DNA from: Sulfurihydrogenibium sp.
Lineage (GTDB): Bacteria > Aquificota > Aquificia > Aquificales > Hydrogenothermaceae
DNA: 40,683 nt
NCBI GenBank assembly: GCA_002878035.1
Contig: PNIU01000021.1
Coordinates: 1-40,683, forward strand
Direction: 5' to 3'
Below, one piece after another: positions 10,545 through 38,685 of this stretch. The notes below the pieces were generated by a model. That model saw only the letters and a list, made by a program, of their open reading frames with translations. It was not told the DNA's origin and searched no databases. Every line of letters starts with the position of its first letter. The stretch's first letter is position 1. The position numbers were made by a program, and so were the translations under genes.

Positions 10545-10573
10545 TTGACAAAACTAATATAAAGTGTTATAAT
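10545..10573 (+). promoter_or_regulatory. Perfect consensus sigma70 promoter for the DUF505-like gene
   Basis: TTGACA (10545-10550), 17-nt spacer, TATAAT (10568-10573) with TG extended -10. Confidence 0.8.
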
Positions 10574-10608
10574 TTATAAAAAAAATTTAAAACAGAAGGA
10601 GGAAACGT

Positions 10609-12561
10609 ATGATTATCAGAAAAGAACACGCTTTAGCACTACTAAATGCAAAAGCACAGGAACAGAAAGGCTTAGCATGTCAAATCAGTGTAAGGTCGGA
10701 AGAAGAACCTTACATCGAACTTGAATTACAAAATCTTTTAGAGCAAGGTAAAAGTCCTATCGAGTACACCCTTACCTATTGGGGAAGAAACATAGTATAC
10801 CTTTTAGAAGAGATGATAAACAAAAACCTTATAAACCACCCATCACAGTGGGATGAAAGGTTTAGATGGATAGGTTCAGAAGTTATAGCAATGATAGAAT
10901 CAGCTATAAAAAACGGAGACCTTACCGGAGATGAAACTTTCGATGCGTTAAAAGAAAGAGGATTTGCAACAGAAGTTCACGAAGAGAAAAAAGGATGGCA
11001 GAAGAAAATAAATGAATATGCAAAAGCAGTTTATGAAATCTACTCTAACGCAAAACCAAGGTTAGAAATATCAAAAGAACTTGCTAACTACTTAATATCT
11101 CTACCACCTGGACCTGCTGAAACCAAAAACTTACCACAACATGGCAGATTTCCACTTTTACTTGAATCTATGAGATTAATATCTTTCTCCGTTCCAAAAT
11201 CTGACGTTTACACACTATCTGGTTTAGGTCAGGCAGTCCAAAAAACAGTCCAAACTATGGCACCATCTTTAGAAACCGTTATAAACGAAGACTATATGTA
11301 TTCTCTATTAAAGTTGTTAGACGTTGGCTTAGAAGGTCTTACTCAAGAACAGATAGAAGTTCTTGCAGAACTTGCATTCATAGATGCTGAAGGTAACATC
11401 TTACCAGCTGGAGAACATCTGTTGGAAGTTTATAAACTTTGGAGTGAAAAAGAATACAGACCTGTAAAAACCTTCGATATAGAAACGTTAGACCAAGAGA
11501 TTCTAAAAGGTATAGAAGCCATCTGGGAAAATAACAAGAGTAATCCAGATATTATTCCTACAGCGGAAGAGATAATTCACTTCCTAATGGAAAAACCTTT
11601 AAAAGATTACAAACATCTTCTCGCTTTCTATGGTAGAAAAATAAACCAAGCTATGGGTTATCAGAAAAAAGAAGAGTTAAAGAAAAAATGGTCAGAATTA
11701 CATACTATAGAACATCTATTTAAACACTTCTACGAAAAAGGAAACCAATGGTATGAAAAACTTTATGATACAGTAAAAGAATCCCTCTACACATTAGAGG
11801 CTTTTAACCTCATATCCTTGGAAGTAGATGAAAGAACAGGAAAACCAGTTTACGTTTTAACTGATTACGGTAAGAAAGTTTTAGAAGATATAAAAGAAAA
11901 AGGTGTAAGAGATATTACATCTACTGCGGTAAAAGCTATTACTATTACAAAAACACAATTCGGTTCTCCAAACTACCATTGGTATGAAGAAGCTTTAAAT
12001 CTACACTTAGTAGGTGGTGGATATCCAACAAAAACAGGTCTTCTATACGAAGAGCTTGCTTACAACATAAAAAGATTACCTCACCTAACAAGGTTTGAGC
12101 TTATGATTCTCCACAAACTACCAGAGTATGGCATATTCTTAAACGAAATATACAATCAGTTTGATGAAACCCTAAAAGAAGAAGTTCAGTATGGATTAAA
12201 TAAACTTGAAGCAAGAGGATTATTAGATATCCTTCCAAATAACGCTATAGTCTTAACAGAAGCCGGAAAACTTATAAAAAGAGCTGTTGCTGGAGTTCCC
12301 GAAGGTTTCGCACATCCAATAAACCCTATAATCGTCAGAATACTTATGGCTATAAAACAAGTTGGAAACTTATATGAAAAAGAGCAAAAAGTCAGAATAC
12401 TTCCTAAAAACTGGGCAGAAGCAATAAAAGTTTCAGGTTTAGACTCTGAAACCTTCGAAAAAGAAGTACATTTAGCAAGACTTGCAGGATACATAGGAAA
12501 AACCTCAATAACAGAAGCAGGTTTAGATATATTAAAAGCTGTAGAGCTTTTAAACCAGTAA
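10609..12561 (+). CDS. DUF505-family-like protein of unknown function with repeated winged-helix-like segments
   Basis: 650 aa; several L..LxxxGLI...LTxxGKxxL segments; resembles the DUF505 archaeal/Aquificales family (recognition from memory); RBS GGAGG. Confidence 0.6.
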   Translation: MIIRKEHALALLNAKAQEQKGLACQISVRSEEEPYIELELQNLLEQGKSPIEYTLTYWGRNIVYLLEEMINKNLINHPSQWDERFRWIGSEVIAMIESAIKNGDLTGDETFDALKERGFATEVHEEKKGWQKKINEYAKAVYEIYSNAKPRLEISKELANYLISLPPGPAETKNLPQHGRFPLLLESMRLISFSVPKSDVYTLSGLGQAVQKTVQTMAPSLETVINEDYMYSLLKLLDVGLEGLTQEQIEVLAELAFIDAEGNILPAGEHLLEVYKLWSEKEYRPVKTFDIETLDQEILKGIEAIWENNKSNPDIIPTAEEIIHFLMEKPLKDYKHLLAFYGRKINQAMGYQKKEELKKKWSELHTIEHLFKHFYEKGNQWYEKLYDTVKESLYTLEAFNLISLEVDERTGKPVYVLTDYGKKVLEDIKEKGVRDITSTAVKAITITKTQFGSPNYHWYEEALNLHLVGGGYPTKTGLLYEELAYNIKRLPHLTRFELMILHKLPEYGIFLNEIYNQFDETLKEEVQYGLNKLEARGLLDILPNNAIVLTEAGKLIKRAVAGVPEGFAHPINPIIVRILMAIKQVGNLYEKEQKVRILPKNWAEAIKVSGLDSETFEKEVHLARLAGYIGKTSITEAGLDILKAVELLNQ

Positions 12562-12575
12562 GATGTTTTTTTAGG

Positions 12576-12604
12576 TTGACAAATTAGAAATAGCACCCTA
12601 TGAT
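12576..12604 (+). promoter_or_regulatory. Promoter of the peroxiredoxin gene
   Basis: TTGACA (12576-12581), 17-nt spacer, TATGAT (12599-12604). Confidence 0.7.
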
Positions 12605-12610
12605 TAGTAA

Positions 12611-12630
12611 TAGTTCCTAATAAGGAACTA
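12611..12630. promoter_or_regulatory. Perfect 8-bp inverted repeat at the predicted peroxiredoxin transcription start
   Basis: TAGTTCCT-AATA-AGGAACTA. Confidence 0.6.
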
Positions 12631-12656: not shown

Positions 12657-13298
12657 ATGGAAGGAAGAATTCCAGTGTTAGGAGAAAAGCTTGAAAACAG
12701 ACAGGTAAAAACAACCCACGGTGTAATCAATTTTCCAGATGATTACAAAGGAAAATGGGTTGTACTTTTCAGCCACCCAGCCGACTTTACACCTGTTTGT
12801 ACTACAGAGTTTGTAGCGTTCCAAAAGAGAATAGACCAGTTTAAAGAGTTAAACTGTGAACTTATTGGCCTCTCTATAGACCAAGTTTTCTCCCATATTA
12901 AGTGGGTAGAGTGGATTAAAGAAAAACTTGGCGTAGAGATTACGTTCCCTATCATAGCAGACGATATGGGAGAAATTGCTAAATCTCTTGGAATGATAAG
13001 CCCTTACAAGGGAACAAACACTGTAAGAGCAGTGTTTGTATTAGACCCAGAAGGAACAATCAGACTTATACTCTACTATCCACAAGAGATAGGAAGAAAC
13101 ATAGACGAGATAATAAGAGCAGTCAAAGCTCTTCAAGTATCAGACGCTAACAAAGTAGCAATACCTGCTAACTGGCCTAACAACGAACTTATAAAGGACG
13201 AAGTAATCATTCCACCAGCATCAGACGTAAAAACAGCTGCAGAAAGACCTAAACAGTATGACTGCTTTGACTGGTGGTTCTGCCACAAAAAAATCTAA
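12657..13298 (+). CDS. Peroxiredoxin (AhpC/TSA, Prx6-type)
   Basis: [14 protein letters not shown] active site; C-terminal CFDWWFC. Confidence 0.93.
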
Positions 13299-13383: not shown

Positions 13384-13456
13384 TCCCGAGTAGCTCAGCT
13401 GGCAGAGCGGTCGGCTGTTAACCGACTGGTCGGGGGTTCGAATCCCTCCTCGGGAG
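13384..13456 (+). tRNA. tRNA-Asn (GTT)
   Basis: Cloverleaf: acceptor TCCCGAG/CTCGGGA, loop CTGTTAA, GGTTCGAATCC T arm; CCA not encoded. Confidence 0.96.
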
Positions 13457-13497: not shown

Positions 13498-14025
13498 ATG
13501 GATTTAAAGAAAATTCCAGCAGGTAAAAATCCACCTGAAGATATTTATGTGGTAATAGAAATACCTCAAGGAAGTGGTATAAAGTATGAAGTTGATAAAG
13601 AGAGTGGAGCAGTTTTTGTAGATAGGTTTTTGTTTACGGCTATGTATTATCCATTTAACTACGGTTTTATACCAAATACCTTAGCCGATGATGGAGACCC
13701 TACAGACGTTTTAGTCATATCAAGAGAGCCTGTGTTTCCGGGAAGTGTTATAAGAGCAAGACCTATAGGAATGCTTGAGATGGAAGATGAAGAAGGTATT
13801 GATACAAAAATTATAGCTGTTCCAGTATCAAAATTAGATAAAACTTTTGAAAATATAAAGGAAGTAAGCGATTTACCACAAGCTACTTTAGACAAAATAA
13901 AGCACTTTTTTGAACATTACAAAGAGCTTGAATCTGGTAAGTGGGTTAAGGTAAAATCTTTTAAAGACTCTAATGCAGCGAAAGAAGATATTACAAAAGC
14001 CATTCAAAACTTTAAAAACACTTGA
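13498..14025 (+). CDS. ppa: Inorganic pyrophosphatase (family I)
   Basis: [41 protein letters not shown]. Confidence 0.96.
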
Positions 14026-14068: not shown

Positions 14069-14141
14069 CGGAGTGTAGCTCAGGTGGGAGAGCACGTGCC
14101 TTGGGAGCACGGGGTCGCAGGTTCAAGTCCTGCCACTCCGA
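14069..14141 (+). tRNA. tRNA-Pro (TGG)
   Basis: Acceptor CGGAGTG/CACTCCG; anticodon loop CTTGGGA. Confidence 0.95.
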
Positions 14142-14155
14142 CTATTAACTAAGGC

Positions 14156-14229
<74 letters not shown>

Positions 14230-14236
14230 CTAACAT

Positions 14237-14905
<669 letters not shown>

Positions 14906-27147: not shown

Positions 27148-27221
27148 TGTCCCTGGCCGGACTTGAACCGGCGACCTCCGGATTAGGAATCCAGTGCTCT
27201 GTCCTACTGAGCTACAGGGAC
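27148..27221 (-). tRNA. tRNA-Arg (CCT)
   Basis: Minus strand GTCCCTG...CAGGGAC acceptor; anticodon loop TTCCTAA; GGTTCAAGTCC T arm; CCA not encoded. Confidence 0.95.
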
Positions 27222-38611: not shown

Positions 38612-38685
38612 GGGCCCGTAGCTCAGTTGGTTAGAGCAGACGGCTCATAACCGTCCGGTCGGGGGTTCGAGTCCCTCCGGGCCCA
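38612..38685 (+). tRNA. tRNA with CAT anticodon; tRNA-Ile2 (lysidine-type) favoured over elongator Met
   Basis: Acceptor GGGCCCG/CGGGCCC, loop CTCATAA; C4:G69 and C5:G68 pairs. Confidence 0.93.

Follow-up and report, generated by a model that had tools for sequence, protein, structure and literature searches.

What does the large protein encoded at positions 10609..12561 of the forward strand do for its thermophilic host? The gene lies in a 40,683-nucleotide stretch of a Sulfurihydrogenibium contig (PNIU01000021.1), hereafter the window, and a preliminary description made from the letters alone had pictured its product as a highly expressed scaffold or nucleic-acid-binding protein, possibly related to chromatin or stress. 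Here we relate the sequence, predicted structure, promoter and genomic company of this protein to that question.

The DUF505 gene, its promoter and its distribution

The open reading frame begins with ATG and encodes an acidic protein of 650 residues (pI 5.5). Its initial assignment to DUF505 was borne out by the Pfam search, in which PF04458 matched residues 1-645 over the whole profile (1-622 of 622) at E=4e-247 and 821.9 bits, against a curated cut-off of 28.7. The window gene is an ordinary, full-length member of a known, uncharacterised family, from which its product shows no structural difference; the present analysis adds its seven-unit architecture, an argument from acidity and the recurring module described below. 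NCBIfam and PDB sequence searches returned no credible relative, and no described function for DUF505 appeared in the literature searched. A PDB profile match to PrgI (E=0.004), confined to a short helical stretch in the fourth unit (D), was judged to be chance. Phages, plasmids and viral contigs gave no DUF505 match, and a mobile-element origin was rejected on that basis.

Upstream of the gene lies a perfect extended -10 sigma-70 promoter (10545..10573, forward strand; 12/12), as had been read initially: TTGACA at 10545-10550, a 17-nt spacer and TATAAT at 10568-10573 with a TG extension. A scan of the 40.7-kb window found this exact TTGACA-N17-TATAAT arrangement once, where shuffled sequence predicts 0.01 occurrences. 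The strong GGAGG ribosome-binding site noticed at the outset is likewise present, as AAGGAGG at 10596..10602 (forward strand), 6 bases 5' of the ATG. We compared DUF505 upstream regions with those of other genes in the same loci whose intergenic region spans 60 bases or more. In Hydrogenothermaceae loci, promoters scoring at least 11/12 precede 9 of 21 DUF505 genes, six of them perfect, versus 4 of the 81 others (Fisher 6e-5), and outside this family the counts are 4/32 versus 2/178. Strong promotion is thus a trait of the DUF505 gene, since the promoters of its relatives also score high. Codon adaptation, computed from sampled contigs of the window genome with its ribosomal-protein genes as the reference, ranks DUF505 14th among 121 sampled genes. 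Consensus promoter, strong ribosome-binding site and adapted codons together support high expression from the gene's own sigma-70 promoter, and on these sequence criteria the initial claim of a highly expressed protein is probably right.

Of 136 Aquificota genomes, 65 carry PF04458, spread over 18 of 30 genera; a draw of 298 Campylobacterota genomes yielded 19 carriers, and in a set of 14 control genomes T. maritima and M. jannaschii have it. The window genome is the sole Sulfurihydrogenibium genome with an intact copy; the gene was not found in four other genomes of the genus, and is frameshifted after residue 174 in one complete genome (L125:2891-4839) and interrupted by an in-frame TGA after residue 497 in one draft (L032:8244-10181), two breaks that may be sequencing errors. 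DUF505 is dispensable in Sulfurihydrogenibium. The family tree contains two Campylobacterota lineages that share only 37% identity, one (L049, L053, L092, L050, L051 and L094) placed within Aquificota beside Hydrogenothermaceae, and the other far outside on a long branch. The placement of the first lineage suggests transfer between the phyla.

An array of winged-helix units

The preliminary description had noted four similar segments resembling winged helices. Repeats were assessed by profile-profile comparison (hhalign) between segments of a 62-sequence family alignment, with column-shuffled nulls and two control segments; the segments were picked with the model secondary structure in view, which makes the z-scores somewhat optimistic. 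Units E (aa 360-434, 11686..11910, motif YVLTDYGKKV) and F (aa 490-563, 12076..12297, motif IVLTEAGKLI) are related most clearly (probability 82%, z=10.9). Unit E also matches HxlR and PadR profiles and is modelled as helix-strand-strand-helix, and unit F is supported by hhalign and the model. Unit A (aa 1-76, 10609..10836, motif YTLTYWGRNIV) aligns with E in register (z=4.5) and agrees with the model secondary structure. Unit B (aa 84-150, 10858..11058) resembles D, E, F and G (z=4.0-5.6), and unit C (aa 150-222, 11056..11274, motif YTLSGLGQAV) resembles E (z=5.3) and F (z=4.5). Unit D (aa 224-286, 11278..11466), the most acidic with a family-mean net charge of -8.5, is linked to B (z=4.1), E (z=3.8) and F (z=3.3). 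The last, unit G (aa 568-650, 12310..12558, motif TSITEAGLDIL), is tied to B (z=5.6), matches E and F weakly and is also seen in the model. All seven are read on the forward strand. The pairs A-E, B-D, B-E, B-F, B-G, C-E and C-F thus reach z of at least 4.0, while every comparison with a control segment stays below 2.8. In the printed alignments the recognition helices are superposed on one another, as are the 'YxLTxxGxxV' wing motifs. All four segments seen originally are therefore present as true in-register repeats, and their count is raised: at the level of sequence profiles we confirm about seven winged helix-turn-helix (wHTH) repeats, of which E and F are clear, A-D moderately supported and G the weakest.

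External comparisons agree with this picture. The HxlR wHTH family is matched by 19 of 23 DUF505 relatives (best 5e-6) and PadR by 10 of 23; the window protein falls below the HxlR cut-off (PF01638; 18.1 versus 20.8 bits). The likeness to these regulators lies in unit E, which differs from them in being one unit of seven and in having an acidic recognition helix. Residues 300-650, modelled with AlphaFold2 (pLDDT 82, pTM 0.78), display the helix-strand-strand-helix pattern, and the best PDB fold matches of this model, RPC62, a SelB C-terminal fragment, IdeR, RuvB and STK19, are mostly single- or tandem-winged-helix proteins, none at E<=0.001. The full-length model, the only one here to include the N-terminal half, is of moderate quality (pLDDT 69, pTM 0.45), and the wHTH matches from its fold search are suggestive at most. 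A viral fold library gave no significant match. The predicted wHTH fold of the units is supported by these models, and the arrangement as a whole is without a match. SelB, RPC62/RPC3 and STK19 resemble DUF505 in carrying several winged helices per chain and in being the best fold matches to its C-terminal half; DUF505 differs in having about seven units, in its acidity, in its gene neighbours and in lacking a whole-fold match at E<=0.001.

A recurring company of stress-linked genes

The Campylobacterota DUF505 gene belongs to a series of genes in one orientation, encoding a Crp-family regulator, YfdX, DUF1931, HdeD (DUF308), DUF505 and a 1-Cys-type peroxiredoxin, mostly separated by gaps of 9-113 bases, and both DUF505 lineages share this operon despite their 37% identity. 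A second arrangement is found in two Aquifex-type genomes (L073:8957-14114, reverse strand; L089:5876-11012, forward strand), where gene overlaps define a seven-gene operon, each junction overlapping by 1-8 nt, in the order prefoldin alpha, memB, memA, UPF0128, RAMP-like, prefoldin-beta-like and, last, DUF505. Prefoldin is a holding chaperone. The RAMP-like gene matches a Csm5 model at E=2e-6, below the cut-off, and a bacterial prefoldin operon with such a gene is odd in itself. Persephonella-type genomes carry UPF0128, RAMP-like, prefoldin alpha, YfdX, memB, memA, DUF1931 and UPF0114 in a row, with DUF505 elsewhere; in one further genus (g26) memA and memB are divergent beside DUF505, and in two genomes the peroxiredoxin adjoins UPF0128. 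The genes are thus reordered between genomes yet found in one company. DUF505 is also often alone or apart from them (Nautiliales-like genomes, Persephonella), and its flanking genes in Aquificota are many and different. In nine Aquificota loci (L079:10944-12017 and eight similar) a 357-aa protein that could be placed in no Pfam or NCBIfam family at significance is encoded directly 3' of DUF505.

The window retains the last pair of the Campylobacterota order, DUF505 followed by a 1-Cys-type peroxiredoxin (12657..13298, forward strand; AhpC-TSA and 1-cysPrx_C by Pfam) of the same subfamily as that found 3' of DUF505 in Campylobacterota. The two genes have separate promoters: a second promoter-like site (TTGACA-N17-TATGAT, 11/12) was found by the promoter scan at 12576..12604 of the forward strand, 5' of the peroxiredoxin. 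Between it and the start codon lies a palindrome, AGTTCCTAATAAGGAACT (12612..12629, forward strand), a possible operator or 5' hairpin that is absent from the other fetched loci save copies of the window locus. The window genome alone in Sulfurihydrogenibium combines the peroxiredoxin with an intact DUF505, and no close copy of the peroxiredoxin was found in sister species. Its lateral arrival from Campylobacterota was considered and rejected as unneeded, because Hydrogenothermaceae carry copies at up to 77% identity versus 68-72% in Campylobacterota. The Campylobacterota peroxiredoxins that adjoin DUF505 (L049:7683-8510, L093:10922-11743 and similar) have an N-terminal extension of about 60 residues that the window protein lacks. 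The window also holds six tRNA genes (13384-13456, 14069-14310, 27148-27221 and 38612-38685), four of which cluster around a pyrophosphatase gene (13498-14025).

The same families tend to occur in the same genomes, in counts that are inflated at genome level because of shared ancestry. Among Campylobacterota, YfdX is present in 19/19 genomes with DUF505 versus 15/279 without, and DUF1931 in 16/19 versus 4/279. Among Aquificota, DUF1931 is found in 45/65 genomes with DUF505 versus 7/71 without, the peroxiredoxin in 30/65 versus 8/71, and UPF0128 in 45/65 versus 2/71, such that 45 of the 47 genomes with UPF0128 carry DUF505. The associations persist when Aquificota genera are counted (18 with DUF505, 12 others): DUF1931 occurs in 13 versus 2 (p=0.008), YfdX in 9 versus 1 (p=0.02), the peroxiredoxin in 11 versus 2 (p=0.03) and UPF0128 in 14 versus 0 (p=2e-5), all 14 UPF0128 genera being DUF505 genera. 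Searches for DUF1931, YfdX and UPF0128 in all genomes of Sulfurihydrogenibium gave no match, and the module in the window organism would be one cut down to DUF505 and the peroxiredoxin.

A proposed scaffold and its alternatives

YfdX and HdeD are reported to be cell-envelope stress proteins needed for the heat resistance conferred by the tLST island (PMC8290217). Given this stress-linked company, with prefoldin and DUF1931 beside it, we infer a module of proteostasis and oxidative-stress protection in thermophiles that would comprise prefoldin, YfdX, HdeD-type membrane proteins, UPF0128, DUF1931 and peroxiredoxin, and in which DUF505 is most simply a protein-binding scaffold. The stress connection raised by the preliminary description thus gains support from gene neighbourhoods (YfdX, HdeD, prefoldin, peroxiredoxin). 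In the reading we favour, though we would place it a little short of an even chance, DUF505 is a cytosolic and acidic protein, an array of some seven winged-helix units, that would serve this module as a scaffold or adaptor, binding a protein partner rather than packaging DNA. Somewhat more tentative is the broader proposal that a hitherto undescribed module for stress protection, common to thermophilic Aquificota and Campylobacterota and partly exchanged between them, has DUF505 as its core scaffold, with the seven winged helices of DUF505 binding proteins and not DNA; the wider membership of the module would take in prefoldin alpha and a beta-like protein, UPF0128, the RAMP-like protein, two small membrane proteins, YfdX, DUF1931, HdeD and the 1-Cys-type peroxiredoxin. 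The nearest described system, tLST1, is alike in grouping genes for YfdX and HdeD with a thiol-redox gene in one stress cluster, whereas its gene list (PMC8290217) is without DUF505, DUF1931, UPF0128 and prefoldin. Conversely, the tLST core of sHSP20 and ClpG/ClpK was not seen among the identified neighbours of DUF505, which in Campylobacterota has YfdX and HdeD beside it. The literature searched contained nothing on UPF0128.

The usual task of a wHTH is to bind nucleic acid, and the units could instead lie side by side on DNA, with DUF505 acting as a regulator or nucleoid-associated protein that organises or regulates under stress. The HxlR/PadR-like unit E, the fold matches to DtxR/IdeR regulators and the histone fold of the neighbouring DUF1931 all point in this direction, but the charge of the protein does not. 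Across the 62 relatives the pI averages 5.3 and ranges from 4.9 to 6.0 throughout, and the seven recognition-helix segments carry mean net charges of -3.6, -0.4, +0.3, -3.0, -2.6, -1.5 and -0.6, that is, a negative average in six of seven, clearly so in four (-1.5 to -3.6); the HTH helix of BirA, encoded in the same window and taken for comparison, has a charge of +5. Acidity of the family and mostly negative recognition helices therefore argue, as far as sequence can tell, against DNA coating, and in these 62 sequences we did not find the basic DNA-binding surface expected of a nucleoid-associated or chromatin protein. Basic patches could occur locally on a few surfaces, the mean net charge across the family being positive for unit G and for the linker 434-490. 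Furthermore, the Campylobacterota operon is already headed by a separate Crp-type regulator, and DUF1931 proteins are described as histone-fold pseudodimers without DNA-binding residues (PMC12701072, PMC11390915). The chromatin and nucleic-acid-binding role suggested in the preliminary description is not supported by these data, and we regard a DNA-binding function as unlikely.

Of similar standing, and likewise improbable in our judgement, is an RNA- or translation-linked factor whose tandem winged helices would read RNA or ride a large ribonucleoprotein or polymerase, as in SelB and RPC62. Those two proteins are the best fold matches to the C-terminal half, and the RAMP-like gene in the Aquifex-type operon would fit such a role; however, the fold matches are not significant, no neighbour conserved across lineages is a translation or RNA gene, and RNA-binding winged helices usually need a basic face. 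We give still less weight to incidental neighbourhood links, by which DUF505 would act on its own in thermophiles, with an unrelated function, and simply share a habitat with these families. Its frequent isolation and varied flanking genes in Aquificota are consistent with this, and all of these families may simply favour thermophiles, but it has to contend with two different tight operons, one of them kept across the 37%-identical DUF505 lineages, and with the nesting of UPF0128 within DUF505 genera. Tandem winged helices also form the frame of the AlkZ/YcaQ DNA glycosylases. That DUF505 is an enzyme on such a frame is very improbable: YcaQ is a glycosylase (PMC7367128) and DUF505 is rich in invariant polar residues, but neither Pfam nor NCBIfam offers a credible enzyme family, and no PDB enzyme is matched by sequence.

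The link to a recurring module provides a first testable functional lead for DUF505, and equally for UPF0128 and the histone-fold protein DUF1931, both likewise unexplained. Should the seven winged helices indeed bind proteins and not nucleic acid, DUF505 would represent a large non-DNA use of the wHTH fold.
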